A stretch of 41,757 nucleotides of DNA from a virus, in the IMG/VR virus record IMGVR_UViG_3300030329_000964, positions 1 through 41,757 of that record. The stretch is one strand, 5' to 3'. Made by a program: the position numbers and the translations under genes. A model generated the notes under the pieces. That model saw nothing but the letters and a program-made list of their open reading frames with translations. It searched no databases and was not told the origin of the DNA. Positions 748-41,376 of this stretch are shown one piece after another. Each line of letters begins with the position of its first letter. Within the stretch, counting starts at the first letter, position 1.

Positions 748-758
748 AGTAACTTTAG
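744..758. repeat. dispersed palindrome, ATAAAGTAACTTTAG
   Basis: One base from consensus. It overlaps the stop codon of the cotransporter-like gene and lies just before the GGGCCA repeats and attP. Confidence 0.85.
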
Positions 759-1102: not shown

Positions 1103-1117
1103 TTAAAGCTACTTTAT
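1103..1117. repeat. dispersed palindrome, TTAAAGCTACTTTAT
   Basis: Intergenic copy, about 85 bases before the RNA polymerase start and 38 bases before the phage-promoter-like element. A protein bound here could control the polymerase gene. Confidence 0.85.
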
Positions 1118-3791: not shown

Positions 3792-3815
3792 ATAGTAGCT
3801 TTAAAGAGACTTTTT
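3791..3815. repeat. degenerate palindromes upstream of the replication module
   Basis: AATAGTAGCTTTAA and then TTAAAGAGACTTTTT lie back to back, sharing part of CTTTAAAG. Each departs from the 15-bp consensus at one to three positions. They touch the promoter-like element at 3817. Confidence 0.4.
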
Positions 3816-7486: not shown

Positions 7487-7704
7487 TTAAAGCTACTTTA
7501 GAAAACCTCACGCTTGCGCTTCATGTTTTCGCTGAAAATAGAAGGCTTAAAGCAGAGGTCAAAAGACTACAGAAAGAACTGAACCATGCTGAAAGGTATG
7601 CTGAAGATTTACATCACGAAATGAAAGGAAGGTTATGGCGAGATACATCTTTGACATCGAAACAGACGGCTTCCTTGACGAATGTAGCAAGGTTCACTCA
7701 TTAG
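7483..7704 (+). CDS. small coiled-coil protein with TTG start, unknown function
   Basis: 73 residues from a TTG that overlaps the previous stop, with GGAGAG seven bases upstream. Residues 15-45 have a heptad pattern (ENRRLKAEVKRLQKELNHAE) typical of a coiled coil. The last 22 residues overlap the start of the DNA polymerase gene in another frame. A palindrome covers codons 2-6 (Ile-Lys-Ala-Thr-Leu), so any protein bound there would sit on the translation start of this gene. Function unknown. Confidence 0.65.
   Translation: MIKATLENLTLALHVFAENRRLKAEVKRLQKELNHAERYAEDLHHEMKGRLWRDTSLTSKQTASLTNVARFTH
7487..7501. repeat. dispersed palindrome, TTAAAGCTACTTTAG
   Basis: At codons 2-6 of the 7483 gene, read as Ile-Lys-Ala-Thr-Leu-Glu. 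Confidence 0.85.
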
Positions 7705-9428
7705 TTCTTGTTGAGGCTGATACAGGTAAACAAATTTCATGCGCTAACCAAACTGGTTACATACCATTGCAGAAAGGTCTTGATGCTTTAACAAACGCTG
7801 ACGAGATCATTGGTCACAACATCATCAAATTTGATCTACCTGTTTTAAATAAAATTTACCCCCAATTCAGAACGAGAGCAAAGATCACCGACACACTTGT
7901 TCTCACTAGGTTGCTCTGGCCTCACATAAAAGAGCTTGATTACAGGGCTATCGAAAAGAAGATACGCGAACACCCTGCTAATCTCTGTGGATCACATTCA
8001 CTCAAAGCTTGGGGGTATCGTCTACGGTGTCACAAGGGTCATGTCGATAATGGTTTTGATCGGTGGACTCCTAAGATGCAGACGTACTGCGAACAGGATG
8101 TTGAAGTAACCCATACTCTTTACAGGCGTATCTTGAAAAAGGGTGTTCCTGAAAGAGCCTCAAAGTTAGAACACGATATTGCTCATCTTATGTGGAAACA
8201 GGAGCAGAACGGTTTTTGTTTTGACATTGATAAAGCTACTTTACTTTTGGCTGATCTAAATGAAAGACGCTTAGAGATTGAGTCAGAGCTTCAAGAGATA
8301 TGGCCTCCCGAAGAAGAAGTAATCCCGTTTTACCCCAAGGTTAATAACTCTAAACTTGGTTATGAGAAGGGTAAACTCTTTGAGAAAAAGAAGATACACG
8401 TTTTCAATCCTAGTTCACGTAAGCAAGTCGGTGAAAAGCTTATCGACAAATACGGATGGGAACCTGAAGAATTAACTGAAAACAATTTACCAAAGGTAGA
8501 TGAAACTGTTCTCAATGGTCTGCCGTATCCCGAAGCTAAGTTATTAGCTGAATACTTTCTTTTACAAAAACGTCTAGGTCAGCTTTCCGATGGGAGACAG
8601 GCTTGGTTAAAGGTTGAACGTGATGGAAAAATCCACGGTTCAGTCATAACCAATGGCACTGTTTCTGGTAGAGCCAGCCACGCCTTTCCTAATATTGCCC
8701 AAGTTCCAAGCACTCATTCACCTTATGGAGATAGGTGTCGTGAGTTATTCCATGTGCCTCAAGGCTGGAAACTTGTCGGGGCTGATATGTCAGGGTTAGA
8801 GCTACGTGCTTTAGCCGCTGAACTTCATAAGTTCGACAAGGGTGCTTATGCACAAGAGGTGATTAATGGTGACATCCACGAAGCTAACAAGAAGGCGGCG
8901 GGTCTTAACGACAGAAGCCAAGCCAAAACCTTCATCTATGCGTTCCTGTATGGCGGCTCGGCGAAAAGGATTGGTTCTGTGGTGGGGGGTTCTACGGCCT
9001 ATGGTGCGACTCTCATTAAAAGGTTTCTTAAAGCTACGCCAGCTATTGCCAAATTGCGTAAAGCCGTGGAACGCCAGTGCGAAAAGGAATATCTGGTCGG
9101 ATTAGATGGTAGATACCTTCATGTACGCTCCCCTCATTCGGCTGTTAATCTACTCCTACAATCCCACGGTGCGGTTTTGTGTAAGCAATGGCTTCTTATT
9201 GTTGAGAAGAAATTAGCTTTAAAGCAACTGTCTCACGGATGGGATGGTGATTATGCCTTTTGTGCTTGGGTTCACGACGAGGTGCAAATCGCCTGTAAAG
9301 CCCATTTAGCTGAATTGATTGGTGAAGTCTGTGTCGAAGCCTGTGCAGAAGCAGGGAAGCATTTTGATTTCGCGTGTCCTCTTGATGGGGAATTTAAAAT
9401 TGGTGACACATGGAAGGAGACTCACTGA
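7635..9428 (+). CDS. DNA polymerase, T7 gp5-like family A
   Basis: A 597-residue replicative polymerase with a 3'-5' proofreading exonuclease. The exonuclease metal site DIETDG (D7, E9) opens the protein, with HNIIKFDL and EQDVEVT further on. The polymerase part shows motif A GADMSGLELRA (D384), motif B QAKTFIYAFLYGG and motif C VHDEVQ (H547, D548). T7 gp5 has 704 residues; this one is about 100 shorter, so an insertion such as the thioredoxin-binding loop may be missing, but I have not aligned it. AAAGGAAGG precedes the ATG. The stop overlaps the next start as TGATG. A palindrome lies at 8230-8244. Confidence 0.96.
   Translation: MARYIFDIETDGFLDECSKVHSLVLVEADTGKQISCANQTGYIPLQKGLDALTNADEIIGHNIIKFDLPVLNKIYPQFRTRAKITDTLVLTRLLWPHIKELDYRAIEKKIREHPANLCGSHSLKAWGYRLRCHKGHVDNGFDRWTPKMQTYCEQDVEVTHTLYRRILKKGVPERASKLEHDIAHLMWKQEQNGFCFDIDKATLLLADLNERRLEIESELQEIWPPEEEVIPFYPKVNNSKLGYEKGKLFEKKKIHVFNPSSRKQVGEKLIDKYGWEPEELTENNLPKVDETVLNGLPYPEAKLLAEYFLLQKRLGQLSDGRQAWLKVERDGKIHGSVITNGTVSGRASHAFPNIAQVPSTHSPYGDRCRELFHVPQGWKLVGADMSGLELRALAAELHKFDKGAYAQEVINGDIHEANKKAAGLNDRSQAKTFIYAFLYGGSAKRIGSVVGGSTAYGATLIKRFLKATPAIAKLRKAVERQCEKEYLVGLDGRYLHVRSPHSAVNLLLQSHGAVLCKQWLLIVEKKLALKQLSHGWDGDYAFCAWVHDEVQIACKAHLAELIGEVCVEACAEAGKHFDFACPLDGEFKIGDTWKETH
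8230..8244. repeat. dispersed palindrome, ATAAAGCTACTTTAC
   Basis: Inside the DNA polymerase gene, read as Asp-Lys-Ala-Thr-Leu-Leu. Confidence 0.8.
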
Positions 9429-10440: not shown

Positions 10441-10841
10441 ACCGCGAAGAATTAGTTAAAGAGTTTCACAACGCCATGAAGCTACAGAGTGACATTGAAA
10501 TGTCCTCACAGTCTTTACGGTTTCGCCTTGATCTTATCATTGAGGAATACAACGAGTTTGTTACTGAAGTTACAAAAGCAAACCACGATATTCAGACACT
10601 TGGGGCTGTTTCGCACGACACTAAAGTAGCTTTAGCGAAAGAGTTAGCTGATCTTCAGTACGTCATAAGCGGGTTCGCTGTGACCTTTGGGCTTCCTTTA
10701 GAGGCTGTGCTTGAGCGTGTCCACGCTTCCAACATGACTAAGGTTGATCCTGATACGGGTCACGTATTTGTACGGGCAGATGGGAAAATCCTGAAAGGCC
10801 CAAATTATAAACCAGCGGAATTGGAGGATTTAATTGTTTAA
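10437..10841 (+). CDS. MazG-like nucleotide pyrophosphohydrolase
   Basis: A 134-residue all-helical protein. The metal-binding signature of the MazG/HisE superfamily is visible as EEYNEF near residue 40 and ELADLQYVISG near residue 71, and the C-terminal part (ASNMTKVDPDTG to LKGPNYKPAEL) is typical of phage members. Such enzymes hydrolyse (d)NTPs; in phages they are proposed to adjust nucleotide pools or (p)ppGpp during infection. The ATG overlaps the previous stop (ATGA). A perfect palindrome at 10621-10635 encodes Thr-Lys-Val-Ala-Leu-Ala. Confidence 0.85.
   Translation: MNREELVKEFHNAMKLQSDIEMSSQSLRFRLDLIIEEYNEFVTEVTKANHDIQTLGAVSHDTKVALAKELADLQYVISGFAVTFGLPLEAVLERVHASNMTKVDPDTGHVFVRADGKILKGPNYKPAELEDLIV
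10621..10635. repeat. dispersed palindrome, perfect CTAAAGTAGCTTTAG
   Basis: Inside the MazG-like gene, read as Thr-Lys-Val-Ala-Leu-Ala. Confidence 0.9.
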
Positions 10842-12521: not shown

Positions 12522-12746
12522 ATGGCAAGAAACTATAGACGAGAGTATGACACTTATCACGGGAAGCCTTCACAAATTAAACGAAGGTCATCCCGTAATA
12601 AGGCCAGAAGGTTACTTATCAAAAAACGAGGTAAAGTAGCTTTAGCTGGTAAAGACGTAGACCACGCTGATCGTAACCCAAATAACAACAGCGTTAAGAA
12701 CCTACGTATCCAGACGAAATCACGTAATCGTCGTAGAAACAAATAA
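12522..12746 (+). CDS. small HNH-like nuclease
   Basis: A 74-residue, very basic protein (19 Arg or Lys in the first 40 residues). The C-terminal part, DVDHADRNPNNNSVKNLRI, matches the histidine, asparagine and NLR elements of small phage HNH domains. It is short, so it may be a minimal nuclease or a remnant of a homing endonuclease. A GGAG sits just upstream of the ATG, two bases after the reductase stop. Its TAA is part of the promoter-like element at 12741. A palindrome at 12631 encodes Gly-Lys-Val-Ala-Leu-Ala. Confidence 0.65.
   Translation: MARNYRREYDTYHGKPSQIKRRSSRNKARRLLIKKRGKVALAGKDVDHADRNPNNNSVKNLRIQTKSRNRRRNK
12631..12645. repeat. dispersed palindrome, GTAAAGTAGCTTTAG
   Basis: Inside the HNH-like gene and 96 bases before the virion-module promoter-like element. 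Confidence 0.85.
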
Positions 12747-15769: not shown

Positions 15770-15784
15770 CTAAAGTAACTTTAG
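15770..15784. repeat. dispersed palindrome, perfect CTAAAGTAACTTTAG
   Basis: In the scaffold-capsid space, extended by A and T to a 17-base palindrome, 130 bases before the capsid start. Confidence 0.95.
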
Positions 15785-16929: not shown

Positions 16930-16944
16930 CTAAAGTAACTTTAG
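16930..16944. repeat. dispersed palindrome, perfect CTAAAGTAACTTTAG
   Basis: Directly after the T run of the capsid terminator and before the ribosome binding site of tail tube A. Confidence 0.95.
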
Positions 16945-20263: not shown

Positions 20264-20706
20264 TGGCCTATGTAAAACCGTTTGAACTCCATGACCTAGC
20301 TCCCATAGCCAAAAACCTTAGAGAAGATGACAAACGGGAAATTGAGGCCGCTATCGGTATAGCACCCGAAGCGGCTTTATTAATGTCCATTACGTCTGCT
20401 GACTATTGCAATGTCATTATGACAGATAAGCCTGTCGGTATTTTCGGACTGGAAGGTAAAGCTACTTTAGGACAACCGTGGATGCTGGCTACTGATGGCA
20501 TAAAAGATTGTCAGATACAGTTTCTTAAAGAGTGCCGTAACTTTATCGACGAAATGCTTACCTACTACCCCATTCTTTCTAATTTTGTAGATGAACGAAA
20601 CACCCTACACCAAAAGTGGCTGTCTTGGTGTGGCTTCATTCCTTTTAAGCGTATCGAAGGTTACGGGATAGCTCAGATACCCTTTATTGAATATGTGAGG
20701 ATTTAA
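20263..20706 (+). CDS. internal virion protein A, T7 gp13-like, GNAT-like fold
   Basis: 147 residues from a GTG sharing a base with the previous stop, preceded by CGGAGG. The sequence pattern (PFELHDLAPIAKNLREDD, then KPVGIFGLEG, WMLATDGI and a KWLSWCGFIPFKRIEGYG end) is that of N-acetyltransferase-like phage proteins at this place, comparable to T7 gp13 (138 residues). In T7 it is needed for proper particle assembly; acetyltransferase activity is not established. A palindrome at 20456 encodes Gly-Lys-Ala-Thr-Leu-Gly. Confidence 0.8.
   Translation: MAYVKPFELHDLAPIAKNLREDDKREIEAAIGIAPEAALLMSITSADYCNVIMTDKPVGIFGLEGKATLGQPWMLATDGIKDCQIQFLKECRNFIDEMLTYYPILSNFVDERNTLHQKWLSWCGFIPFKRIEGYGIAQIPFIEYVRI
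20456..20470. repeat. dispersed palindrome, GTAAAGCTACTTTAG
   Basis: Inside the gp13-like gene, read as Gly-Lys-Ala-Thr-Leu-Gly. Confidence 0.85.
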
Positions 20707-21243: not shown

Positions 21244-24200
21244 ATGGCTACTACAATAAAAAGTCCCAAAACTAGGGTACAGGTAGCAGACCTTAATTTA
21301 GATGCCCCTGCTCAATCCCAAGTCGTTGCTCAGATGACGAACTTTGGTGTCCCAAATATTCAGCCTGATTATCAAATCTCTAAAGAAACCCAAGAATTTG
21401 CGGATATGCTTGGGGCTGTACGATCTGATCTTATCCCTGCCTATAATAAGTTTGCGGCTGATGATGCTGAAGAAAAGGGTAAGGCTTGGCGCGGTGCTTT
21501 CGGCACGATGACGGCTGAAGAATCCAAGAAGTTCTATGAAGCAAAGATACCTGAACATACAGGCGTTTATGCTGTTGCCCTTCAGTCAGCCTACGGTAAC
21601 AAGATGGGCCTTGAAAGGCGTACTGCTCTAGCTCAAGAAGTGCTTAAAGACCCAAACTTTCTTATCAACTTTAACAGACTAAAAGACCAAAACGGAAATC
21701 TTCTTCTTGATGAGAACGGTGTTCCTACAGGTGAAAAACGATTAGGGGCAGACGGTAATCCTATTACCCTTCAAGATTATCTAAATGAACTACGGGCAAA
21801 AGACTTAGGTACTGATCCACCAGCTAACGTGATGAGTGCTTATGACCGCACAATGGAAAGCTTTAGGCATGAGCTACGTGCCGACCAGACAGAGCTTGAG
21901 GCCGCACATAAGAAACTAAGGGTAGAAAACACGTTTATGGAATCTGCCGTCGCTATTTTGAGTAACCCTGACAAGAAAACTCTAGCGGCTAAAATGGAGG
22001 GTTTCTACAACCTTAAAAAAGGTTTCGGCCCTGACTCACTCTTACAGGTTAGTAACACACGTTTTAACGATCTTACTATGGCTGTTGCTGAACGATTTGC
22101 CCAAGAGGGTAATGTTGAGGTTGTTGATGCTTTAATAGGACAGCGGCCTGACGGTGGCTCCCTGTTGCTGACCCCTGCTTATAAAGGAAAAGCTGGACAG
22201 CTACTTAAACAGGCACATACAGCGAGAGATAAGAAGTTAAGTGAAGCTGGTGAAAAACTTTATGCTAAATATGCGCCTTTAGCTCAATCTGGAACACTCA
22301 AAGGTGTGGATGGTAGAGACTTTGGAGATCACCTATTTAAAAACAAGGACGGTAAGACAGACTTTGAACGGTTAAGAGATCAAGGTTTAACAACCACCCA
22401 AATCATTGCTTTGCAAAGTGCGAACCAAAGAAAGATAGATGAATATAATAAGAAATTAGCAACTCAATCTAAAGCTACTATTATGTCGGCGGCACAGGAA
22501 AGAAGTTTATTTAAAGTAGACTCTAACGGGGAATTACAAACTGTTGAAGAACTCTTAGCGGATAAATCGAATCCATTATATTCTTTAATAAAATCTGATC
22601 CAGAAAACTTTAATCCCGCCTTTTTGACTACTCAAAGAAACGCACAGCTTGCCGCCAAAAACCGATTTGAGCGTATGCAAGATGAAAGGGCATATGAAAA
22701 AGCTCAACCTGTTATGTTAGAAATAGACGACCTCGCCCGTAAAGGTGAACTCCCTGAGAATTGGACTACTAATCCTAAATATACGGAGGCTATGGCGGCT
22801 CAAAATGGAGGTAAGGGTGTAACTGCAAAATGGATAGGCGATTACAACGACCGTAATACACGGGCGAAGCTGGACATTGAACGGCAAGCAATATCGTCAC
22901 AATTAGGTGATAAGTGGGATGATGTTAGTAAGATGCGGTATGTCAGAGGTCGCACAATAAACCAGATTTACAAGGATGAAAAAGAGTTTTGGGATGCTTG
23001 GGCGAAAAATGACAGCCCCGAAAGGGATGCTAAAGTAGTCGCTATTGAAAAGATTCGCTCTATGAAAGACAAAGAGGACGGAAATCGCAAAGCAAACCTA
23101 GCTAAACTTAAAAGAGAGCGTATAGCTAAAAACGCTAGTGAAGCTAAGATTAATATTCGTGAATTAGCTAGTGAGTACATCCTTAACCACGGTAATAAAT
23201 TTGGCTCTTACATTCCCCATGATCCTACTAAGGGGAAGGTTCATCGTGAACTAAATGACATTGTAATTACTATAGGCACTGGTGACGAAGCCAGAACAGC
23301 AAGACTGTCGATACAGGACTTTCTGCAATATGGTGTAGATGAAGGTGTAAAACGTATTATCAGTCAAGGTGGCCCAAATGTTATGGCTGATGCGCTTGAA
23401 TTTCAGGTAACGCGAGACACATTAGCAAACCCGTGGAAAGACATGATGGAAAATGGGTCAGCTACAGATGTTCTTACGTTAGGTGATTATTCTGACCAAG
23501 AGTTTCCTAACAGCCCCTTTAACAGAGGGTATCAAATCTATTCCACATTAAAGTCTACCAATCCAGCCATGCTGACCGAGATTAAGGACGCTCGTATGAT
23601 CTACGATATGTACGATACGTTCCTGTTAGTCGCTAACGGTGATCGTCTTACAGCGGCGAAACATCTTACGAACAGGCTTAAACAAGCACAGATTGATTTA
23701 CCAAAGATTTCGACACGTCCAGACATTATAACCCAAATGAACGACCAATTAGATGGTTTTTTTGGGGCTGATCCAACGAATCTACGTTCCCAAGCTGAAC
23801 CTATAATTGAACGAATGGTACAAGGCTATCTGGCTACTGGTGCAGATGCTAAACAAGCCATCAAAAATTCTATGACCAGATACCAGTCAATGTATAAACA
23901 AGTACACAAAAAATATGTAAGAACAGACGATCTCCCTCATATCGAAGATCCATTTACAGCTACGAGCGTTGATAGCGGTGGGACATTTATGAAAGCTAAT
24001 GAACAACACCTAGATCGTGCGCGGAAATACATAGCGGCAAAAGTCATGGAAGATAAAGTAGCTTTAGCCACTCTTGGAGGTGGTGACGATCTTGATGAAG
24101 ATAACTTCAGTTTAGTACGGGCAGGGAATATGTTCTTTGTTACGTATAACGACAACCTTATTCCCCATGACTTCACTGACGATAGAGGGGCCACAACCAT

Positions 24201-24324: not shown

Positions 24325-27300
24325 TGGCAGATCGTTACACGTTATCTGATGTTGTTGAACAGCCCCTTTCTCCCCCTGAACCCCGTCTTGAACAAGATAT
24401 GCTTAACCGACAAGCACAAGAAACAATGGGGGATCAAGACACAACTTGGGATGTATTCACGGCTTCAGTCGAAGCTGATTCCATAACCAGCGACTTAATG
24501 AACCTCATGCGTTCTGATCCTGTCGAGCTTCAAGCGGCGGCTTCACATACTGATCCAGACTTTAGTTTAGACACGATGGATGAGGTACAGAAAGCTACTT
24601 TATTCGATGGTTTACCAGAACATATGTTCGACGTTTATGAAGATGCTGTGTCGTATGAACACGCTCTTGCCATGAAGAAGTATAATGTTGATGTACGTCT
24701 TAAAGCTGAACAAGTTCTTAACCGTCAAGGTATAGGAACACAGTTAGGTATACGTGGTCTTGTCAGTGTTCTTGATCCTGTAGCTCTTGGTGCAACTATA
24801 GCTTCTGAAGGTGCTTTAGCTCCTTTAATATGGGGAGCCAAGATTTCGCGTATGGGTAGCATCCTACGTGGTGGTGCAGTAGCTATGAGTACTAATGCGG
24901 CTTTGGAATCAGCTTTATATTTTAATGATCCCATGCGTAAACCTGAAGATATTCTCTATGCAGGGGCTTTAGGATTTACTCTTGGTGCGCCTCTGGCTGG
25001 CATCGTTCAACCTGCAATGGTACGTAGTTCTGTTCGTAAGTTTGCTGATGAAGCACAGCGGCGAGGGAACGGCGAGGCTCCTACCCATGCGCCTCAACTT
25101 GACGAGGACGGGCTTGATTACATAGCTCCACCTGATGCGGATACGCATAATGATGTACCTAACCTCGACATGGAAGATGCACCACCAACGATTACTGAAC
25201 CAGAAGTAAAAGCGGAGCCTTCTCCAGTAGTCGCTACGCCTGAAGGAGCAACGATTGCTGAACCAGAAGTACCCTTAACATGGAAAGGTTCAAAAGGAAC
25301 ACACCAAGCAGACGGGTATACTATACAAAAGAAAGATGGTGAGTGGGAGATACACACAGGAACCGCTGATGAAGTATCGGATTCTAATCTCATAGAAACG
25401 GTAAGCTCTCTTAAAGGGGCTAAAGCCCGTGTTGAAGTTTTACGACAACGTAAAGCGGAGCCTTCCCCTGAAGTAGAACCAGTAGTCGCTACACCTAAAG
25501 GGGATGCGCCAGAGGTTGATATTAACCAAGCTGATCTTGAAGCTGAAGCTGTAGTAACAGGTGAAGCTGTCAAGGAAACTAAAGCTACTTTAAAGGCCCA
25601 TAACAAAGAACTTGGTAAGGCTAAACGGGCTTTGACTAACGCTAAAAAGAAAGGGAAAACTGATAATGCTGAACTTGAGGCAAAAATAAAAGAACTGGAA
25701 GCAAAAAAGGCCACGCTTCAAGAAGCTTCTCAAGCGGCAACGCAAGCGGATAAAGATGTTAAAGCAAAACTTTCAGGGTTCGACGTAAAAGACCCTAACA
25801 AAGCATCCACGGAACGCTACAATATAGCAAAGAAAGCAGTCGGTGGGGCTAAAGCATGGGCATCTAAAATACGGGTGTCGATGGGTTCAACGCTCATGTC
25901 CTCAGACCACGCTATAATCAACCATGTTGGACGAAAGCTTGTTCCTGATGGTGTAGGCAGAGATACGTTAGGACAAGGACAATCATCCACAGCGCAAGAG
26001 ATTGGCGCACGTTTTTATCAAACCCTTTTAACAAAATATGCGTCAGCTTCCGATGCTGGATTTAGAGCTTGGCGTAAAGCAACTGGTAGAAGTCGGTTTG
26101 GATTTAAGGCCCGTCAAGAATACGAAGAAGCTGTAACGAAGGCTATTCGGGCTGGTGGTTCTGATGACCCACATATAGCGAAAGCGGCCCAAGCCTTACA
26201 AGGGATGTATAGAGAGTTTGCTGAACTTCTCCGCGACAGTGGTGTAAAGGGGTTTGAAGAACTTATGCCGAGTTCCAACTATGTTCCCCGTTTATTCAAC
26301 TTTAATGAAGTAGGTGCAATTCACGACACAATAGGAACAGGCAACCTTGAGTTACTTATTGCTCAAGCAATCAAGAACGCAACTAAAGGTTTAGATGAAG
26401 ATGACGTTGCTAAAGTCGCTAAGAAATACGTTGAGACATTACGTAGAGTTCGCACTGGTGAATCCACACTTAACCATGTCCAGCTTACGGAGCTTCAGTT
26501 TGAGACTTTAAAAGAAATGGTTGAAGGTGAAATATCTGATGAAGCTTTGAACGCTATTCTTTCAGGTATCAAGACAGGTACAGGAGAAGGTGTTGTATCC
26601 AGAGCGAAGAAACGCCTTGTCTTGGACGAAACAGCTACAATTAAAGTCAACGGTGTCGATTATAGCTTTCAAGACCTGTTAATGAATAACGCCTTTGACA
26701 TAGCAAATATGTATGCTCACCAAATGTCAGGGCAGATTGGCCTAGCCCGTATAGGAATTAAGAGTCGGGCTGATTGGGCTAGAATTATGTCCGACATAGA
26801 TAACACAAAGCATCTTTCTGGTTTAAGCGAGGCTGATATAGCTAATCAAAAAGAAATGCTAGACATTATCTACCGTTCAATCACGGGTGCGCCGTTACAC
26901 AAAAAAGGCATGACTTCTGAAATGCTTCAGTTAATTCGTGACTATAACTATGCCCGTGTGATGAACCAGACAGGGTGGGCGCAGTTACCCGAAATATTCA
27001 ACGCTATGGGTGAACACGGCATCATCACCTTTATGAAAGCCATCCCTACCTTTGGTCGAATCATACGAAACGCTAAGACAGGAACTTTCAACGATGAATT
27101 TATGGCTGAACTAGACAGTATATGGGCCTTTGGTAATGACCCAATTATACGCAGAGCTTCCAGCCGTCATAGTGAACCATCTGAAGGTGTCGCTGTAGAT
27201 AACAGGGGTGTCCGAATACCCTTCACTCAGAAACGTGTCGGCAACATGGAGGGTATACACCGTACTCTTAAAGCGGCTGGTAAAGTTACTTCAACGCTTT

Positions 27301-28211
27301 CAGGTATGGCTCCAATTACAACAAGCTTTGAGCGTATGACCGCTATAATGATTGTTAAGAACTTTGCAGACATGGCGAAAGGTTCTTCCAAGTACACAAT
27401 GGAAAGACTTGCCGCTATGGGAATCAACGACAAAAAGAGCTTGGAAGCAATTCTCACCCAATTAAGAACCCATTCTGGTACGGTTGAAGGCCCGTTGAGT
27501 GGTCGGACAATTAATGCTCTTAACATTGATAAGTGGGATGATATTGAAGCTAGAGAAGCATTTATAACGGCTGTCCAGAGAGCTACGCACAGATCAATCC
27601 AGCGTAATAATGTTGGAGACATGGCTAAGTGGATGACAACTGATTTAGGACAAACCGCAATGCAGTTTCGTTCCTTTGTCTTTGGGGCTTATGAGAAGCA
27701 GACCTTACGTGGCTTTAATCAACATGATTCCGCTATGGCACTTCAATTCATTATGACAACGATGGTTGCGGCTATGGCGTACACTGGTCAGACCTATGTG
27801 AAGTCGATAGGACGTAAGGATCAGAAAGAATACCTAGATCGAATGTTGTCACCTTTGGCAATAGCGAAAAGTGGCTTTCTACGTTCAGGCTGGGCTTCAT
27901 TACTCCCTGCGGCGTGGGATGCAGGGGCAGACTTTATTGTAGACCCACCCCATGCTTGGATGTTTGGGTATGCTCGTTCTTCAGGACAGGCTTCATCACT
28001 TGTCGAGGGTATTCCTACTGTCGGTATGTTTACTGCCGCTAACAAATCTGCACACGCACTTGTTGAGTCAGGACTTACCTCAAGAGAATTAACGCAAAAA
28101 GACATAAGAACATTAGGTAGTTTGATGATATTTCAGAACCTTCATCCTGTTCAGTGGGCCATAAATGCGGCGGCTTCTCAATTCCCTGAGAGACAAAGCA
28201 CACTAAAGTAA
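24324..28211 (+). CDS. internal virion protein D, T7 gp16-like
   Basis: 1295 residues, near T7 gp16 (1318). T7 gp16 opens with a lytic transglycosylase domain; here the first 150 residues show no such Glu-Ser-type motif, so the wall-degrading part seems to be missing or replaced. Residues 250-430 are acidic and Pro-rich with two repeated EAEPSP(V/E)-type segments; residues 410-500 look like a long coiled coil. A region near 560-690 (including SSNYVPRLFN) resembles domains of large phage ejection and polyvalent proteins. In T7 it builds the inner-membrane part of the ejection channel. Three palindromes lie inside, and a fourth overlaps the stop. Confidence 0.85.
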   Translation: MADRYTLSDVVEQPLSPPEPRLEQDMLNRQAQETMGDQDTTWDVFTASVEADSITSDLMNLMRSDPVELQAAASHTDPDFSLDTMDEVQKATLFDGLPEHMFDVYEDAVSYEHALAMKKYNVDVRLKAEQVLNRQGIGTQLGIRGLVSVLDPVALGATIASEGALAPLIWGAKISRMGSILRGGAVAMSTNAALESALYFNDPMRKPEDILYAGALGFTLGAPLAGIVQPAMVRSSVRKFADEAQRRGNGEAPTHAPQLDEDGLDYIAPPDADTHNDVPNLDMEDAPPTITEPEVKAEPSPVVATPEGATIAEPEVPLTWKGSKGTHQADGYTIQKKDGEWEIHTGTADEVSDSNLIETVSSLKGAKARVEVLRQRKAEPSPEVEPVVATPKGDAPEVDINQADLEAEAVVTGEAVKETKATLKAHNKELGKAKRALTNAKKKGKTDNAELEAKIKELEAKKATLQEASQAATQADKDVKAKLSGFDVKDPNKASTERYNIAKKAVGGAKAWASKIRVSMGSTLMSSDHAIINHVGRKLVPDGVGRDTLGQGQSSTAQEIGARFYQTLLTKYASASDAGFRAWRKATGRSRFGFKARQEYEEAVTKAIRAGGSDDPHIAKAAQALQGMYREFAELLRDSGVKGFEELMPSSNYVPRLFNFNEVGAIHDTIGTGNLELLIAQAIKNATKGLDEDDVAKVAKKYVETLRRVRTGESTLNHVQLTELQFETLKEMVEGEISDEALNAILSGIKTGTGEGVVSRAKKRLVLDETATIKVNGVDYSFQDLLMNNAFDIANMYAHQMSGQIGLARIGIKSRADWARIMSDIDNTKHLSGLSEADIANQKEMLDIIYRSITGAPLHKKGMTSEMLQLIRDYNYARVMNQTGWAQLPEIFNAMGEHGIITFMKAIPTFGRIIRNAKTGTFNDEFMAELDSIWAFGNDPIIRRASSRHSEPSEGVAVDNRGVRIPFTQKRVGNMEGIHRTLKAAGKVTSTLSGMAPITTSFERMTAIMIVKNFADMAKGSSKYTMERLAAMGINDKKSLEAILTQLRTHSGTVEGPLSGRTINALNIDKWDDIEAREAFITAVQRATHRSIQRNNVGDMAKWMTTDLGQTAMQFRSFVFGAYEKQTLRGFNQHDSAMALQFIMTTMVAAMAYTGQTYVKSIGRKDQKEYLDRMLSPLAIAKSGFLRSGWASLLPAAWDAGADFIVDPPHAWMFGYARSSGQASSLVEGIPTVGMFTAANKSAHALVESGLTSRELTQKDIRTLGSLMIFQNLHPVQWAINAAASQFPERQSTLK
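24589..24603. repeat. dispersed palindrome, AGAAAGCTACTTTAT
   Basis: Inside the gp16-like gene, one mismatch in the left arm, read as Gln-Lys-Ala-Thr-Leu-Phe. Confidence 0.65.
25579..25593. repeat. dispersed palindrome, CTAAAGCTACTTTAA
   Basis: Inside the gp16-like gene, read as Thr-Lys-Ala-Thr-Leu-Lys. Confidence 0.85.
27280..27294. repeat. dispersed palindrome, GTAAAGTTACTTCAA
   Basis: Inside the gp16-like gene, one mismatch in the right arm, so Leu becomes Ser (Gly-Lys-Val-Thr-Ser). Confidence 0.6.
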
Positions 28212-28217
28212 CTTTAG
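28203..28217. repeat. dispersed palindrome, perfect CTAAAGTAACTTTAG
   Basis: Overlaps the stop codon of the gp16-like gene and precedes the fibre gene; flanking A and T extend it to 17 bases. Confidence 0.95.
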
Positions 28218-30304: not shown

Positions 30305-30337
30305 ATGACAGCAACTAAAGCTACTTTAGGCGTATAG
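30305..30337 (+). pseudogene. ten-codon ORF in the fibre cluster, possible gene remnant
   Basis: ATG at 30305 through TAG at 30335-30337 encodes MTATKATLGV. It contains a perfect palindrome in the Lys-Ala-Thr-Leu frame that is otherwise used only inside real genes, hinting that it is the start of a lost gene. It has no good ribosome binding site. Confidence 0.3.
30315..30329. repeat. dispersed palindrome, perfect CTAAAGCTACTTTAG
   Basis: Between two fibre-like genes. Unlike the other intergenic perfect copies it has the CTA centre used in coding copies. Confidence 0.9.
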
Positions 30338-32076: not shown

Positions 32077-32415
32077 ATGGCTAGATCAGACTACACGCAC
32101 AAGATGGTAGATGGAGTATCCGTTGCTCTCACAGAAGCAGAGATTGATGAATATGTAGCGAGAGAAGAAGCATGGGAAGCTGGTGCGACAGATCGTGCTT
32201 GGGTAGCTATTCGCAGAGAACGTGATATGCGTATAGCCGCTACGGATTACTACGCTCTGTCAGACGTAACCTTGGCTGACAACATGAAAACGTATCGCCA
32301 AGCACTACGAGATGTACCAGCAAACACGGCTGACCCCGTAGCGTTTCAGACCCAGTGGAATGATTTCCTATCAGAAAAAGATGGCGTATCTGATCCTTGG
32401 CCTACTAAACCCTAA
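32077..32415 (+). CDS. tail fibre assembly chaperone-like protein
   Basis: 112 residues with AAGGA before the ATG. The C-terminal half, RRERDMRIAATDYYALSDV then YRQALRDVPANTADPVAF and ending DPWPTKP, is typical of the phage tail assembly chaperone group (Phage_tail_APC type). Such proteins usually lie directly after fibre genes and help fold them. The stop codon is embedded in a perfect palindrome. Confidence 0.75.
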   Translation: MARSDYTHKMVDGVSVALTEAEIDEYVAREEAWEAGATDRAWVAIRRERDMRIAATDYYALSDVTLADNMKTYRQALRDVPANTADPVAFQTQWNDFLSEKDGVSDPWPTKP

Positions 32416-32426
32416 AGTAACTTTAG
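32412..32426. repeat. dispersed palindrome, perfect CTAAAGTAACTTTAG
   Basis: Overlaps the chaperone stop codon and lies 15 bases before the next ATG, covering the space between fibre and lysis genes. Confidence 0.95.
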
Positions 32427-34318: not shown

Positions 34319-34536
34319 CAGACCGTAGAAAACTACTTGAAAGTCTATTTGACGAAACCGCAAAAAGTTTACTCGCTAAAGTTACTTCAGGAGAAGCTAC
34401 TGCATCTGACCTGAATGTTGCCCGTCAGCTTCTTAAAGATAACCACATCGAAGCTGATCCACAGGCTAATGACTCCCTAAAAGAGCTATTTGCGTCTTTA
34501 CCGACTTTCGACAAAGACAAAAAGGCCATGATTTAG
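34315..34536 (+). CDS. terminase small subunit, T7 gp18-like
   Basis: 73 residues (T7 gp18 has 89), GGAG before the ATG. The segment LLESLFDETAKSLLAKVTSG and EATASDLNVARQLLKDNHI is characteristic of small terminases in T7-like phages; the acidic-basic tail ends KDKKAMI. It recognises concatemeric DNA for packaging together with the large subunit. A palindrome with one mismatch at 34376 encodes Ala-Lys-Val-Thr-Ser. A 115-base space with hairpins follows. Confidence 0.85.
   Translation: MTDRRKLLESLFDETAKSLLAKVTSGEATASDLNVARQLLKDNHIEADPQANDSLKELFASLPTFDKDKKAMI
34376..34390. repeat. dispersed palindrome, CTAAAGTTACTTCAG
   Basis: Inside the small terminase gene, one mismatch in the right arm. 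Confidence 0.65.
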
Positions 34537-34651: not shown

Positions 34652-36307
34652 TTGACTCAAAATCCTTTTTTTGGGGAAGATGGGTTCAAGAAGTTCGTTT
34701 TCGCCATTTGGAAGCAACTTGGACTCCCTGACCCCACTCCATTGCAGTATGACATATGTGATTACCTTGTGAACGCTCCTAAACGATCAGTCATCGAAGC
34801 TTTTCGTGGCGTGGGTAAATCATGGATCACATCTGCTTTCACTGTCCACACGCTTTATATTGATCCACAGAAGAAAATACTGGTGGTGTCAGCTTCAAAG
34901 GAACGGGCAGACCAATTCAGTACGTTTACCAAGAGGCTCATAAATGAAATTGAGTTCTTGAAGGACTTGCGACCAAAGGAAGGTCAGCGAGATTCGGTTA
35001 TTGCTTTCGATGTTGGACTCGCCAAGCCTGACCACAGCCCTAGTGTCAAATCTGTAGGGATCACGGGTCAGCTTACAGGGTCACGGGCTGATCTGATTAT
35101 TGCTGATGACATTGAGGTAGTGAATAACTCCGCTACGCAGACCATGCGAGATAAACTGTCGGAACAGGTCAAGGAGTTCGACGCTATTCTCAAGCCCCTT
35201 CAGGACAGTCGTATAATTTACTTGGGTACACCCCAAACCGAAATGTCTCTCTATAACCAGTTACCAGAAAGAGGGTACGAGATGAGGGTATGGCCTTCAT
35301 TGTTCCCCACAGAAAAACAGGTCGAAGGCTATAGAGGCACATTGGCTCCCTACATTTTAAACAGTGAAGGTGAGTCGGGGATGCCCACTGATCCCTTGAG
35401 GTTTAACGAGGTTGATCTGGCAGAGCGAAAAGCATCATACGGACGGGCAGGGTTCGCTTTGCAATTTATGTTGGATACTACGCTTTCGGATGCCGACAGA
35501 TATCCCCTCAAGATTGAGGACTTGGTTATTGCCAATCTACCAAACAACGAGGCAAGCGTAAGATACACTTGGGGGCCAACCCCTGAGTTATGTGAGAACG
35601 ATGTACCTTGTGTCGGACTAACAGGTGATCGTTTTTACAGGCCCATGCAGATTTCAGATACCATTGAGGAATACCAAGGGGCTGTCATGTCGATTGACCC
35701 TTCAGGCCGTGGCGCAGACGAAACAGGGTATGCCGTGGTGAAGCATCTTCATGGTCAGCTTTTTGTAACGGCCTGTGGTGGCCTCATAGGTGGGTACGAC
35801 GATAAGACATTAAGGAAACTGGCGACGATCTGTAGAGATCACAAGGTCAAGTCCATCGTCATCGAAGCTAACTTTGGTGATGGAATGTTTAACAACCTTC
35901 TCAAACCAATCTTACAAGACATTTACCCCTGTACGATTGAGGAAGTACGCCACAGTAAGCAAAAAGAGTTACGTATAGTCGATACTTTAGAGCCTGTAAT
36001 GATGCAACACCGCCTAATTATCGACAAAAAACTTATTAAGGAAGATTACGAGTCAGCCTCAAAGCTACCCTATAGCCTCTTTTATCAGATGACACGATTA
36101 ACACGGGATAAAGGAGCTTTAGTCCATGACGATAGGCTGGATGCCCTAAGTATAGCTGTAGGGTATTGGGTGGACAGTATGGCGAGACATATCCAGAAGT
36201 CTGTAGATGCCAGCAAGGATAAAGCACTTAAAGAGGAACTAAAGAGGTTCAAAGCCCACGTAATGAATCGACAAACAAAGCCCAGAAACAGGGTATGGAT
36301 GAATTAA
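34652..36307 (+). CDS. terminase large subunit, T7 gp19-like
   Basis: 551 residues (T7 gp19 has 586). The ATPase shows Walker A FRGVGKSW (K56) and Walker B LIIADDIE (D152, D153); the segment PDHSPSVKSVGITGQLTGSR is nearly the same as in T7. The nuclease half has SIDPSGRGADETGYA with its metal-binding Asp, and HDDRLDALSI near the end. The enzyme cuts and pumps DNA into heads. The TTG start follows GGGGA at a slightly long distance; no ATG fits better. Its stop codon lies in the promoter-like element at 36302. Confidence 0.96.
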   Translation: MTQNPFFGEDGFKKFVFAIWKQLGLPDPTPLQYDICDYLVNAPKRSVIEAFRGVGKSWITSAFTVHTLYIDPQKKILVVSASKERADQFSTFTKRLINEIEFLKDLRPKEGQRDSVIAFDVGLAKPDHSPSVKSVGITGQLTGSRADLIIADDIEVVNNSATQTMRDKLSEQVKEFDAILKPLQDSRIIYLGTPQTEMSLYNQLPERGYEMRVWPSLFPTEKQVEGYRGTLAPYILNSEGESGMPTDPLRFNEVDLAERKASYGRAGFALQFMLDTTLSDADRYPLKIEDLVIANLPNNEASVRYTWGPTPELCENDVPCVGLTGDRFYRPMQISDTIEEYQGAVMSIDPSGRGADETGYAVVKHLHGQLFVTACGGLIGGYDDKTLRKLATICRDHKVKSIVIEANFGDGMFNNLLKPILQDIYPCTIEEVRHSKQKELRIVDTLEPVMMQHRLIIDKKLIKEDYESASKLPYSLFYQMTRLTRDKGALVHDDRLDALSIAVGYWVDSMARHIQKSVDASKDKALKEELKRFKAHVMNRQTKPRNRVWMN

Positions 36308-36357: not shown

Positions 36358-36372
36358 TTAGAGCTACTTTAT
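36358..36372. repeat. dispersed palindrome, TTAGAGCTACTTTAT
   Basis: Gene-free region after terminase; one mismatch in the left arm. The wider context (CTTTA before, TTTATG after) recalls the copy at 1103. Confidence 0.65.
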
Positions 36373-36595
36373 GTTATACACTAGGTTATCACTAAGGGTC
36401 TTTGGGTTATTTACTACTACCTCCTCTACTTTTGGTAGAAAAATCTGAGGGGGTATCATCTAAACAGACACGCGACCGGCCCCCCTCTGGCCCCTTGGCC
36501 TCTTTTGGTGTCCAATCATGCCATTATCATCAATTTATCAATGAGTTAGCTAGGATATGTTATCCTGTATTCTGGCCCCATGCCATCGACAGAGA

Positions 36596-36610
36596 CTAAA
36601 GTAACTTTAG
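36596..36610. repeat. dispersed palindrome, perfect CTAAAGTAACTTTAG
   Basis: In the gene-free region about 160 bases upstream of the early host-type promoter; flanking A and T make it 17 bases. Confidence 0.95.
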
Positions 36611-36664
36611 TGCGTCTGTGTATTTTCGTATCAGTGTTTTTTGTTCTCCCTATGTTCTCCATAT

Positions 36665-36832: not shown

Positions 36833-37003
36833 ATGTCTAACTTAGTGACTACTTATGACGACAATGGTGCAATCTTAGCTAAATACATATTCAACACTTG
36901 GTCTGAAGCCACCGACTTTATAGCCAATTATGATTTAACGGCTGGCAATATTTCAACAAACGATGTTGTGAAAGTTACTTTAGAAAAAGGGGAAAACCAA
37001 TGA
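36833..37003 (+). CDS. first early gene, 56-residue unknown protein
   Basis: AAGGGGA precedes the ATG. The protein reads MSNLVTTYDDNGAILAKYIF and continues with a mixed, soluble pattern ending VTLEKGENQ. As the first product after the early promoter it could act on host functions, as small early proteins do in T7, but no similarity is seen. A palindrome with one mismatch lies near its end (Val-Lys-Val-Thr-Leu). The stop overlaps the next ATG. Confidence 0.65.
   Translation: MSNLVTTYDDNGAILAKYIFNTWSEATDFIANYDLTAGNISTNDVVKVTLEKGENQ
36969..36983. repeat. dispersed palindrome, TGAAAGTTACTTTAG
   Basis: Near the end of the first early gene, one mismatch in the left arm, read as Lys-Val-Thr-Leu. 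Confidence 0.65.
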
Positions 37004-37179
37004 GAACCATTAACACGACTGCCTTCACAATGGCCTTAATGGGCTGGCTTGGCCTTGTGGCCCAAGGTTCAATGGAAATCTACTTCATTGATGAAACTAC
37101 GCACATTCTAGCTTTAATCTGGCTTCCAATCATAGCCTTGGGATTTCTCGTTAGTCTTTGCATAATGGGGGACGAATAA
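37000..37179 (+). CDS. 59-residue early protein with two membrane segments
   Basis: GGGGA precedes the ATG, which overlaps the previous stop. Two hydrophobic helices are seen (TMALMGWLGLVAQG and ILALIWLPIIALGFLVSLCI) joined by a short acidic loop (EIYFIDETTH). It is likely an inner-membrane protein; small early membrane proteins of other phages can act in superinfection exclusion, but nothing here shows that. TAATG joins it to the next gene. Confidence 0.65.
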   Translation: MRTINTTAFTMALMGWLGLVAQGSMEIYFIDETTHILALIWLPIIALGFLVSLCIMGDE

Positions 37180-38549
37180 TGAATGACGCATTGCACCTAC
37201 CACAAGGCAATAAACAGCGTGGTAATTGTTTCATCACTAGTGCGGCCACGTTTTTTGAAATCCCATTCAATAGCGTGTGGGACTATGTGAAAAAAGCCAG
37301 CTCCAAGGGGGGAAACTGGAAAGGCTCAACGCCTAACTGGGTTATTCCCCAGACCATGAAACATTTTGGGTTCGATGGTGAATATGAGCGTGTTTCTAAT
37401 ATGACTGTTGAGCAATGGGTTAACACACGTTCAGAGTTAGGCACTAAGTATCTAGTGTTATCGACAGGCCACGCACAAGTCGTATTAGACGGTGAGGTAT
37501 TAGACCAGCAAGGCCCAATTCGTATTTCAGACTATTGGGGGAAGCGCAAGAAAATGAGTGGCTTCTATGCCATGCGCGACGACAAGCAAACTAAAGTAAC
37601 TTTAACTGAAAACAGAAAGGAGACTAAAAAAATGAGTATGCAAGTAGAATATATAGACGTTTCAGAAATCCAAATAGACGGGGATTTTAACGCAAGGTTA
37701 AACACACCAACATTCAAAAGCCACGTTAGAGATTTGGCCGCTAACATGAGGGAACGTGGTTACGACGAAACCAAGCCTTTGGTTATCAATGGGAATAATG
37801 TGATAGTTGACGGGCATTGTCGGTTCAAGGCTTTAACCCAAGCTAATAAAGACGGTTCGGGTATCACTACGGTTCCAGTATTCAAGCGCGATTATGAGAG
37901 CGACACTGATAAGGTTTACGAATTGCTTAATCAAAACAATGGTGAGCAATTAACCATGCTTGAACGGGGCCAAGTCGGAAAACGTCTATTGGCGGCGGGG
38001 GAAACCAAAAAAGACATTGCGGCCAAGGCCCAAGTTACGCCAGCCGCAATGGGACAAGCTATAAAGGTTGCTGATTGTCCCACAAATCTCCGTATTGATA
38101 TGGAAACGGGAACCATAACAGAGAGTGAAACCGCCAAGGATGGCCGCTGTATTCACGATTTTATCATTATGGAAATGGCAGGTAGTCAAAAGGTTTACGA
38201 ATACCTAGTGGAAGCCGAAAAGGCCCAGCGTAAAACTGAGGAAATTGGGGAACGTGCGTCATTGAGTGATGAAAGCATGGTTAAGGTATACAAAAAGGTT
38301 CTCAAAAAGCTGACGCCTAAAAACTCTCCTAATGATGATGATGGTGAGGATGAAAACGATGGTGATGGCAATGATGAAGAAGCCGAAAGCCAAACACAAA
38401 AGAAACTACGTTTATTGTTTGAGGCCATCGAAGAAAAAGCTACGCAAGTAGATGATGAACAGCTAGACGGCAATGGTGAGCCTATGAAGGTTCTAACCTT
38501 TTGGGCTGGCGATTGGGATAACCTAAAGGATGTTTTCGGGCAAAAATAA
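37179..38549 (+). CDS. cysteine-peptidase-like domain fused to ParB-like DNA-binding protein
   Basis: 456 residues from ATG 37179, which overlaps the previous TAA. Residues 1-140 look like a papain-type fold: RGNCFITSAATFF with Cys C17, STGHAQVVLDG with His H98, and D109. Residues 152-456 begin a new unit: a ParB/sulfiredoxin-like nucleotide-binding domain (VDVS-type start, NARLNTP, then VDGHCRFKALT at 210-220), followed by a ParB-type helix-turn-helix (LERGQVGKRLLAAGETKKDI, then AAKAQVTPAAMGQAIKVADC) and an acidic low-complexity stretch (DDDGEDENDGDGNDEEAE). No ParA gene is present. An internal ATG at 37632 follows AAAGGAG, so the ParB-like part can be made alone. It is a candidate binder of the dispersed palindromes; one copy lies in the linker. 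Confidence 0.8.
   Translation: MNDALHLPQGNKQRGNCFITSAATFFEIPFNSVWDYVKKASSKGGNWKGSTPNWVIPQTMKHFGFDGEYERVSNMTVEQWVNTRSELGTKYLVLSTGHAQVVLDGEVLDQQGPIRISDYWGKRKKMSGFYAMRDDKQTKVTLTENRKETKKMSMQVEYIDVSEIQIDGDFNARLNTPTFKSHVRDLAANMRERGYDETKPLVINGNNVIVDGHCRFKALTQANKDGSGITTVPVFKRDYESDTDKVYELLNQNNGEQLTMLERGQVGKRLLAAGETKKDIAAKAQVTPAAMGQAIKVADCPTNLRIDMETGTITESETAKDGRCIHDFIIMEMAGSQKVYEYLVEAEKAQRKTEEIGERASLSDESMVKVYKKVLKKLTPKNSPNDDDGEDENDGDGNDEEAESQTQKKLRLLFEAIEEKATQVDDEQLDGNGEPMKVLTFWAGDWDNLKDVFGQK
37591..37605. repeat. dispersed palindrome, CTAAAGTAACTTTAA
   Basis: In the linker between the peptidase-like and ParB-like parts, ten bases before an internal AAAGGAG; read as Thr-Lys-Val-Thr-Leu-Thr. Confidence 0.9.
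37615..37634 (+). promoter_or_regulatory. internal ribosome binding site and start for the ParB-like part
   Basis: AAAGGAG at 37616-37622 is followed after nine bases by an in-frame ATG at 37632 (MSMQVEYIDVSEI). This is as good as any start signal in the genome, and it separates the two domains. Confidence 0.75.
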
Positions 38550-39007: not shown

Positions 39008-39299
39008 AGTCGTAACAATAGAACCATGTGCAATCGCAGAATTTATGAAGTCTTGGCCTTGTTCTGGCCTTCACAATGTTAATCATATTGTGGCGGCATT
39101 TAAAATGTTTGAACATTACGGGGAATTAATTGATTTAGACGTATGGCAAGACAATGAAGAAAAAAGGCCCGTAGATAAGGATGATTATGATGGTTCTGGG
39201 GCTATGCCAGCATTGTTAGATGATGCGTTTAAGCATAGCCGAAATATATCTACGCCAAATCAATTACCTAACTATGTTTATAAAGTAGCTTTAGATTAA
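39000..39299 (+). CDS. 99-residue early protein of unknown function
   Basis: ATG 39000 follows AAAGGGGA and overlaps the previous stop. It starts MIKVVTIEPCAIAEFMKSWP, includes two Cys close to the start (EPCAIA and PCSGLHN) and is otherwise soluble and mixed. The last five codons, Lys-Val-Ala-Leu-Asp, are formed by a palindrome at 39280-39294. I recognise no family. Confidence 0.7.
   Translation: MIKVVTIEPCAIAEFMKSWPCSGLHNVNHIVAAFKMFEHYGELIDLDVWQDNEEKRPVDKDDYDGSGAMPALLDDAFKHSRNISTPNQLPNYVYKVALD
39280..39294. repeat. dispersed palindrome, ATAAAGTAGCTTTAG
   Basis: At the very end of the 39000 gene, read as Tyr-Lys-Val-Ala-Leu-Asp before the stop. Confidence 0.85.
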
Positions 39300-40321: not shown

Positions 40322-41376
40322 GTGTGTATAAGGAAAAGCGTGACGGTAAACTTACGGGCCGCTGGTTAGCCGCCGTCACGTATAAAGGAGAACGTAAACG
40401 TCAGCGTTTCGACACGCATCTTGAAGCGGTGGAAGCTGAAACCAAATGGAAGGCTGATTTTTATTCACTAGAAAGTAGCTCTAAAGTTACTTTAGCCTCT
40501 GACGATGGTACGTCTGTACCTGAATATCTAAGCCAGCTACGTACCCGTGTGATGCGCCGTGTGTGGGCTGGTAAAGGTGACGAGCAGATGACGCGAATAC
40601 GCTCGAAAGAAATTGTCACCATGCTTGGAAACCCAAGGATCAAAAGTATCAACTTCAACCACGTTGAGGAACTTATGGATTTTTGGGCCACGAAAGGTAA
40701 CAGCAACAGTACCATCAACCGTAAATTGTCGGTGCTTCACAAGATGCTATCGTATGCCGCTGACCCAAGGCGTAACTGGATAGACTCAGTGCCGCCTTTC
40801 GATTGGCTAAAGGAAAGCGGTCAGCGCATACGGTGGATAGACAAGGCCGAAGAACAGCGAATCTATGAGTGTTTCCATGATCTAGGTGACCCGTGGATGG
40901 CTAAGTACGTCATGGTGGGTATAGACACAGGGTTTCGACCAAGTGAGCAACAGGGAGCCAAACCTGACCAACTCACGGGGTCTGATAATCAATGGTTCGT
41001 ACACTTGTGGGAAACTAAGAACCATAAGCCTCGTACCATACCCCTGATTGACCGTAGCCACGATGCACTAAAGTCACTTTATACCGATGAGGATACCCCG
41101 TTTTTCTACATCAAGGATAAACGTGAGATTAATCATAGGTGGAATGTCATGCGCGACCAGTTAGGGCTAAGTGATGACCAGTATTTTGTTCCTTACTGCC
41201 TACGCCATACGTGTGCTACCCGACTCGTTAAGGCTCGTATCAATCTCAAGGTTATCAAGGATTGGATGGGTCATAAAGACATACAGACCACTTTGAGGTA
41301 CGCCCATCTTGACGATGAGATGCTAGTCGAGGCGGCTGTCGATATTAACAAGATGTTTGGAGATATACGCCTATGA
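40318..41376 (+). CDS. int: tyrosine integrase
   Basis: 352 residues. An N-terminal region (EKRDGKLTGRWLAAVTYKGE) typical of arm-binding domains is followed by a core-binding domain (residues about 60-160) and a catalytic domain. Catalytic residues are Arg (R207, TGFRPSE), Arg and His of CLRHTC (R296, with H297 beside it), His H319 (GHKDIQTTLRY) and the nucleophile Tyr Y328. The usual His three before the second Arg is Tyr here (Y293), a replacement also seen in some phage integrases. It would join attP to a host tRNA-Leu gene. A perfect palindrome at 40481 and another at 41068 lie inside. Confidence 0.93.
   Translation: MSVYKEKRDGKLTGRWLAAVTYKGERKRQRFDTHLEAVEAETKWKADFYSLESSSKVTLASDDGTSVPEYLSQLRTRVMRRVWAGKGDEQMTRIRSKEIVTMLGNPRIKSINFNHVEELMDFWATKGNSNSTINRKLSVLHKMLSYAADPRRNWIDSVPPFDWLKESGQRIRWIDKAEEQRIYECFHDLGDPWMAKYVMVGIDTGFRPSEQQGAKPDQLTGSDNQWFVHLWETKNHKPRTIPLIDRSHDALKSLYTDEDTPFFYIKDKREINHRWNVMRDQLGLSDDQYFVPYCLRHTCATRLVKARINLKVIKDWMGHKDIQTTLRYAHLDDEMLVEAAVDINKMFGDIRL
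40481..40495. repeat. dispersed palindrome, perfect CTAAAGTTACTTTAG
   Basis: Inside the integrase gene, read as Ser-Lys-Val-Thr-Leu-Ala. A degenerate second copy (AGAAAGTAGCTCTAA) abuts it on the left. Confidence 0.95.
41068..41082. repeat. dispersed palindrome, CTAAAGTCACTTTAT
   Basis: Inside the integrase gene. The centre is TCA and the reading frame differs from all other coding copies (Leu-Lys-Ser-Leu-Tyr). Confidence 0.65.

Follow-up and report, generated by a model that had tools for sequence, protein, structure and literature searches.

Dispersed, evenly spaced palindromes accompany an orphan KorB/Noc-type ParB protein in a T7-like phage genome

Computational analysis of the 41,757-bp IMG/VR record IMGVR_UViG_3300030329_000964 (positions 1 to 41,757; hereafter the window) revealed, at the level of sequence, an association of phage ParB-like proteins with a dispersed, evenly spaced 13-bp palindrome, which reads TAAAG-N3-CTTTA in the window and GGAAG-N3-CTTCC or similar in relatives. 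We consider it likely that the ParB protein of the window is an autoregulated orphan clamp, made mainly from the internal start codon ATG 37632, which loads at the dispersed palindromes to coat or organise the phage genome. Spreading of ParB from dispersed sites had been raised as an alternative to partition in an initial annotation of this DNA and is now the leading hypothesis.

The window probably represents a complete genome of about 41,658 bp, since it carries a 99-bp direct terminal repeat (1-99 = 41659-41757). It encodes a T7-like gene set, i.e. a single-subunit RNA polymerase, primase/helicase, DNA polymerase as well as T7-type head-tail and terminase proteins, and in addition a tyrosine integrase (40318-41376) with a gene for a MarR-like winged-helix protein located upstream (39974-40318). 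A megablast search with half of the window genome did not retrieve a near phage, and a promoter/terminator scan of the window returned matches at or below chance level. A ribonucleotide reductase large-subunit-like gene is present at 10834-12519 of this T7-like genome, and a small ORF upstream of the RNA polymerase gene (304-747) resembles a Na+/Pi cotransporter (PF02690, E 2.7e-17), possibly representing a host-derived metabolic gene.

ParB is encoded in a single open frame of 456 codons on the + strand (37179-38549), in which a domain of the phrog_3754 family is joined to a DNA-binding protein of the KorB/Noc/ParB type. The ParB-type fold postulated in the initial annotation was borne out when structures of both halves were predicted. 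The AlphaFold2 model of the C-terminal half, with pLDDT >90 over most of residues 1-170, comprises a ParB-N fold followed by an HTH domain, and its best PDB matches in Foldseek are KorB (E 3.4e-8) and Noc (E 1.4e-7), then ParB. KorB is also matched by sequence (8qa8, E 4.5e-4). Box II contains the P-motif GxxR in the form GHCR at residues 212-215 of the fusion, and all 35 aligned sequences share its G and R. A counterpart to Box III of canonical ParB could not be recognised in the window protein, and CTP switching is therefore only putative. In a ParB tree the protein forms a long branch of unsure position. The earlier statement that no ParA is encoded held: families PF13614 and PF01656 were not found in the window genome, and the ParA-binding motif [LFI]G[KR]G[LFI] is absent from ParB, on which grounds ParABS partition was rejected. 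A Noc-type membrane-targeting amphipathic helix is absent as well, the ParB fold starting ~4 residues after M152. As judged by computation from the modelled fold, the GxxR motif and the absence of a detectable ParA, the C-terminal half represents an orphan KorB/Noc-type ParB protein of a phage.

Free ParB is probably produced, as the Shine-Dalgarno sequence at 37616, upstream of ATG 37632, matches the consensus of the phage itself: the sequence AAAGGRGA occurs 14 times on the + strand of the window and is followed by an ORF start in 12 cases, including this one. AAAGGAG (37616-37622) and the in-frame ATG had both been pointed out in the initial annotation together with the idea that the ParB part could be made alone, and all of this agrees with the present data. 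The parB leader thus carries, in this order, a palindrome, the Shine-Dalgarno sequence, an A-run and the start codon. The palindrome, TAAAGTAACTTTA, is located at 37592-37604; it is real, but in the span originally assigned to it (37591-37605) the outer bases are unpaired.

This palindrome is one of many. In an unbiased scan for all palindromes with 5- and 6-bp arms, TAAAG-N3-CTTTA was found in 23 exact copies in the window versus about 0.07 expected from composition, and the next commonest palindromes were either shifts of the same sequence or had at most four copies. In 40 other phage records the sequence occurs 0 or 1 times each. When up to one mismatch is allowed, the window contains 31 sites (Table 1) with a mean spacing of 1.34 kb and a CV of 0.66, which is more even than random (P 0.008). 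Although noncoding DNA makes up only 9% of the genome, 11 of the 31 sites lie wholly or partly outside genes. The other two thirds are intragenic and far from gene starts, almost all of them read in the single stop-free frame AAA GNN NCT TTA. The earlier proposal that dispersed sites are used for something other than partition is supported. Two ParB-type sites are contained in a 40-nt inverted repeat (36583-36622 / 40469-40508; 83% complementary, 3.8 kb apart) that flanks the early region.

Table 1. Positions of the fused frame's elements and of the palindromic sites in the window; the last line refers to phage G003.
Feature	Position	Strand	Basis
Papain/C39-like domain, phrog_3754 family, residues 1 to about 135-136; C17, H98, D109	37179..37586	+	phrog_3754 E 1.1e-6
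Linker, translated parB leader	37587..37631	+	sequence; pLDDT <50, residues 136-152
Palindrome TAAAGTAACTTTA, proposed ParB operator, ends 27 nt before ATG 37632	37592..37604	.	
Shine-Dalgarno AAAGGAG for internal start	37616..37622	+	ORF start follows 12/14 AAAGGRGA copies
ParB/KorB-like DNA-binding protein, 305 aa from internal ATG	37632..38549	+	phrog_1033 E 7.9e-27; KorB fold
Dispersed site	745..757	.	palindrome scan
Dispersed site, upstream of RNAP gene	1104..1116	.	palindrome scan
Dispersed site	2873..2885	.	palindrome scan
Dispersed site, 1 mismatch	3802..3814	.	palindrome scan
Dispersed site	4596..4608	.	palindrome scan
Dispersed site	5985..5997	.	palindrome scan
Dispersed site	7488..7500	.	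palindrome scan
Dispersed site	8231..8243	.	palindrome scan
Dispersed site, 1 mismatch	9296..9308	.	palindrome scan
Dispersed site	10622..10634	.	palindrome scan
Dispersed site	12632..12644	.	palindrome scan
Dispersed site, upstream of major head gene	15771..15783	.	palindrome scan
Dispersed site	16931..16943	.	palindrome scan
Dispersed site	20457..20469	.	palindrome scan
Dispersed site	24054..24066	.	palindrome scan
Dispersed site, 1 mismatch	24590..24602	.	palindrome scan
Dispersed site, 1 mismatch	24806..24818	.	palindrome scan
Dispersed site	25580..25592	.	palindrome scan
Dispersed site, 1 mismatch	27281..27293	.	palindrome scan
Dispersed site	28204..28216	.	palindrome scan
Dispersed site	30316..30328	.	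palindrome scan
Dispersed site	32413..32425	.	palindrome scan
Dispersed site, 1 mismatch	34377..34389	.	palindrome scan
Dispersed site	36109..36121	.	palindrome scan
Dispersed site, 1 mismatch	36359..36371	.	palindrome scan
Dispersed site, noncoding, start of early region	36597..36609	.	palindrome scan
Dispersed site, 1 mismatch	36970..36982	.	palindrome scan
Dispersed site	39281..39293	.	palindrome scan
Dispersed site	40482..40494	.	palindrome scan
Dispersed site	41069..41081	.	palindrome scan
G003 palindromes, e.g.	2329, 3805, 5328, 7645, 10328, 14200, 20501, 32266, 34498 of G003		

Dispersed palindromes also accompany ParB in other phages. The core AAGTNACTT, often in the form GGAAG-N3-CTTCC, was present in at least 4 dispersed copies in 15 of 45 phages with ParB relatives, but in none of 38 ParB-less controls, which were T7-like relatives or phages possessing only the peptidase-like gene (Fisher p 3e-5). 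The remaining 30 phages with ParB relatives lack the AAGTNACTT motif; among them, Carli has 30 copies of GGAAA-N3-TTTCC in its place, while no such palindrome was found in G044, G045 and most KorB-type members of the panel. The palindromes predicted for the ParB proteins of the window, R16L and Carli are TAAAGTAACTTTA, GGAAGTNACTTCC and GGAAANNNTTTCC, respectively. ParB is the only one of 43 window genes common to all 14 site-bearing phages compared, which follows from the selection of the panel by ParB homology; the finding that every other window gene recurs in none or one of them does not. Free of this selection bias is solely the motif-first scan, in which only two contigs had multiple matches among the matches listed, namely G078 with 68 and G079 with 36 exact copies. 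A ParB-like protein is encoded in each (phrog_1033, E 2.2e-6 and 1.2e-23, respectively), and the two contigs have essentially no other gene in common with the window. G078 (IMGVR_UViG_3300050498_000031) accommodates its 68 palindromes in 47.8 kb, several of them at a 786-bp period near 1.8-4.1 kb, which suggests a tandemly repeated region.

The position of a site next to the start of ParB, remarked upon for the window in the initial annotation, recurs in both contigs: upstream of parB, about 27, 27 and 55 nt separate the end of a site from the start of the gene in the window, G078 and G079, respectively, with a joint chance of about 2e-4 as calculated from site density. In most other site-bearing phages a site is found about 345-415 nt upstream of parB, which in R16L places it upstream of the preceding small gene. 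Spacing was more even than random (P < 0.05) in six of nine panel phages (window, G035, G038, G054, Carli and R16L) and likewise in G078 and G079, whereas evenness was not significant in G039, G052 and G053. With a mean spacing of 1.2 kb and a maximum gap of 1.8 kb, the sites of G054 look like a pattern for genome coverage rather than for promoter control. Since integrase is absent from 10 of 11 site-bearing phages tested, the site system is not tied to lysogeny. In G037 and G040, two further phages with ParB, other palindromes are enriched, with 8 copies of TAACC-N5-GGTTA and 13 of TCAA-N7-TTGA; these may be sites of their own ParB proteins.

Arrays of dispersed palindromes are, however, not exclusive to phages with ParB, as the T7-like, integrase-bearing relative G003 (L024), in which no ParB is detectable, has nine GTCTAG-N3-CTAGAC palindromes (core TCTAG-N3-CTAGA). 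Candidate binders in G003 are a 120-aa wHTH-like protein encoded before the integrase gene or a 255-aa early protein. This pairing of palindromes with a small wHTH-like gene before integrase makes the MarR-like protein the best rival binder in the window, where regulator and integrase are both present as well. The palindromes would then act as 'stoperators' of an immunity repressor, a known scheme of dispersed sites (PMC4351075), to which ParB would be unrelated. We regard this as quite improbable: MarR-like homologs exist in G016 and G008, yet these phages have no such sites; conversely, site-bearing phages lack MarR-like homologs and mostly integrase; the pre-parB site in three phages speaks against a MarR-like binder; and the sites are palindromic and evenly spaced, whereas stoperators are asymmetric and oriented with transcription. 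A lysogeny repressor as the binder was accordingly dropped as the leading idea in view of the site-free G016 and G008 and the scarcity of integrase. Somewhat less improbable, though still unlikely, is that ParB binds the sites solely as a local repressor or activator of multiple promoters, comparable to the KorB regulon, the genome not being coated. The excess of sites outside genes would fit such a regulon, as would the finding that in many phages a site precedes parB directly or at a distance of about 345-415 nt, but it leaves the sites located within genes far from starts and the even spacing across the genome unaccounted for.

By analogy with KorB and Noc, which load at palindromes and exert distant effects as CTP clamps (PMC11790492, PMC8429893), we infer a ParA-free coating clamp. 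ParB, made mainly from ATG 37632, would bind as a dimer to the ~31 palindromes and repress its own synthesis via the palindrome that precedes this ATG by 27 nt. From each site it would load as an NTP-switched clamp and spread into the ~1.3-kb intervals. The genome thus coated may, as a unit, become compacted, insulated or silenced.

The best fold match, KorB of plasmid RK2, likewise represents an orphan use of the ParB fold. It differs in being a plasmid protein that works with KorA, and its operators, about 12 on RK2, are fewer and not evenly spaced round a virus genome. Like the window sites, they are short palindromes with arms around a short centre, the OB oligo containing TTTAGCGGCTAAA (PMC11790492), and KorB is autoregulated and acts over long range as a CTP clamp. 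Noc, the second fold match, is a ParB relative without ParA that relies on a CTP switch and on numerous scattered palindromes (PMC8429893); it acts on the bacterial chromosome at 16-bp NBS and possesses a membrane-binding N-terminal helix, of which the window ParB shows no sign. In phages, dispersed palindromes of sequence TGTTCGG-N3-CCGAACA were described in 2015 for the Cluster O mycobacteriophages (Corndog), which encode the ParB-like gp90 and have neither a parAB partition system nor an integrase; these palindromes were left without an assigned function and were not linked to gp90 in that description (PMC4351075). Compared by published description, these palindromes differ from those of the window in arm sequence and length (17 bp versus 13 bp). 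A literature search of partial coverage, preprints excluded, found no paper linking phage ParB-like proteins to dispersed sites. For phages, fusions of the ParB fold to DUF3850, DUF4417 and methyltransferases are on record in a 2025 survey, and a text search of it gave no mention of peptidase fusions or palindromes (PMC12704722).

ParB and the site pattern being shared by unrelated phages suggests a little-known mode of coating or organising phage DNA. Many phages carry orphan ParB-like genes that are annotated as 'partition proteins' without ParA, and the association ties these to dispersed palindromes. It predicts a binding site for each orphan phage ParB, which can be tested in the cultured phages R16L of Erythrobacter sp. 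JL475 and Carli of Sphingomonas sp. LR55. If a clamp indeed coats the genome, phages in lytic growth would rely on a ParB system without ParA to organise their DNA. A broader generalization is about as likely as not: in a widespread, mostly lytic class of phages, the DNA may be organised throughout the genome by an orphan ParB clamp that loads at roughly regular intervals of 0.7-2.6 kb, a viral counterpart of nucleoid proteins, the Corndog-type palindromes being the same thing.

The N-terminal half of the frame belongs to phrog_3754, a family of unassigned function. Because single-sequence queries of both halves yielded no matches in viral contigs, alignments were used for the scans, which detected relatives of the N-terminal half at 42 viral and three bacterial-genome loci. 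As claimed from the start for the papain-like part, the catalytic-type residues C17, H98 and D109 are in place: they do not vary among 24 aligned phrog_3754 members, and neither do Q110, W47 and G49. The AlphaFold2 model (pLDDT 86, pTM 0.81) displays the papain/C39 order, i.e. C17 opens a helix, H98 opens a strand and D109 closes the next strand. Foldseek matches to solved peptidases are weak (PCAT1, a C39 peptidase, prob 0.90, E 0.12), whereas uncharacterised phage proteins match well (Kharn, E 5.9e-9); a Pfam peptidase match was not obtained and Pfam and PDB sequence profiles yield no name. The label 'papain-like' appears reasonable on the basis of the model, and the C39-like fold together with the conserved catalytic residues would fit a putative peptidase. 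The C39/papain-like peptidases PCAT1 and ComA share the Cys-helix, His/Asp-strand order despite the weak fold match, but are attached to an ABC transporter, unlike the N-terminal half in the window.

A functional reason for linking peptidase and ParB, as envisaged in the initial annotation, did not receive support. The two halves are separate genes at all other loci and share no other record, and no second fusion was found among the 42 viral and three bacterial-genome loci of the peptidase-like gene and the ParB loci. No ParB is located near the peptidase-like gene at the three bacterial-genome loci, and at 80 loci of TerL relatives neither half is close to TerL. Stable co-occurrence of both genes was rejected. 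Standalone relatives of the N-terminal half (e.g. L089, L128) come to an end at about the equivalent of residue 130-135, and short relatives of ParB (e.g. L148) begin directly at the fold, which identifies the linker (codons ACT AAA GTA ACT TTA ACT GAA AAC AGA AAG GAG ACT AAA AAA) as translated parB leader. Consequently, read-through is a simpler explanation than a self-cleaving switch. The papain-like domain would be an independent phage protein, here reading through the parB leader into parB, and the additional, fused product is probably incidental. That the fusion functions as a self-cleaving or regulated protease-ParB switch seems very improbable to us. It could draw on the open frame with intact catalytic-type residues and on the precedent of phage P1 DdrB, for which autoproteolysis was inferred (Iyer et al., PMC5512222), but the lack of any further fusion and a linker that is leader DNA in front of a ParB with its own strong start argue against it, and no evidence for self-cleavage was found by computation. 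In DdrB and the polyvalent proteins, too, a single polypeptide holds a peptidase together with a ParB-like domain, yet DdrB has a zincin metallopeptidase and a DdrB-type ParB domain and is processed and packaged into the head (PMC5512222), whereas the window ParB is of KorB type. An artefact of assembly or sequencing as the origin of the fused frame is also rather unlikely, albeit less so than the switch. Seven consecutive A's are present at the junction; were there only six, the N-terminal half would finish in a TGA overlapping the ATG of parB (ATGA), a typical phage gene overlap. Against this, the frame is open as assembled in this single record and A7 is short for an assembly error. Both read-through and such an error at the junction of one assembly are simpler accounts than a designed protease switch, and an artefact would be compatible with the ParB clamp, as it concerns the fusion only.

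The phrog_3754 proteins of Sphingomonas phages Kharn and Eidolon and of Roseobacter phage CRP-902 have catalytic-type residues identical to those of the window protein, but are standalone. Many marine members of the family have a C-terminal QTFGLPLF tail that the window fusion lacks; the conserved end of these standalone proteins (L088, L091-L129), FDIAEAQTFGLPLF, is, by its sequence, reminiscent of a sliding-clamp-binding motif.
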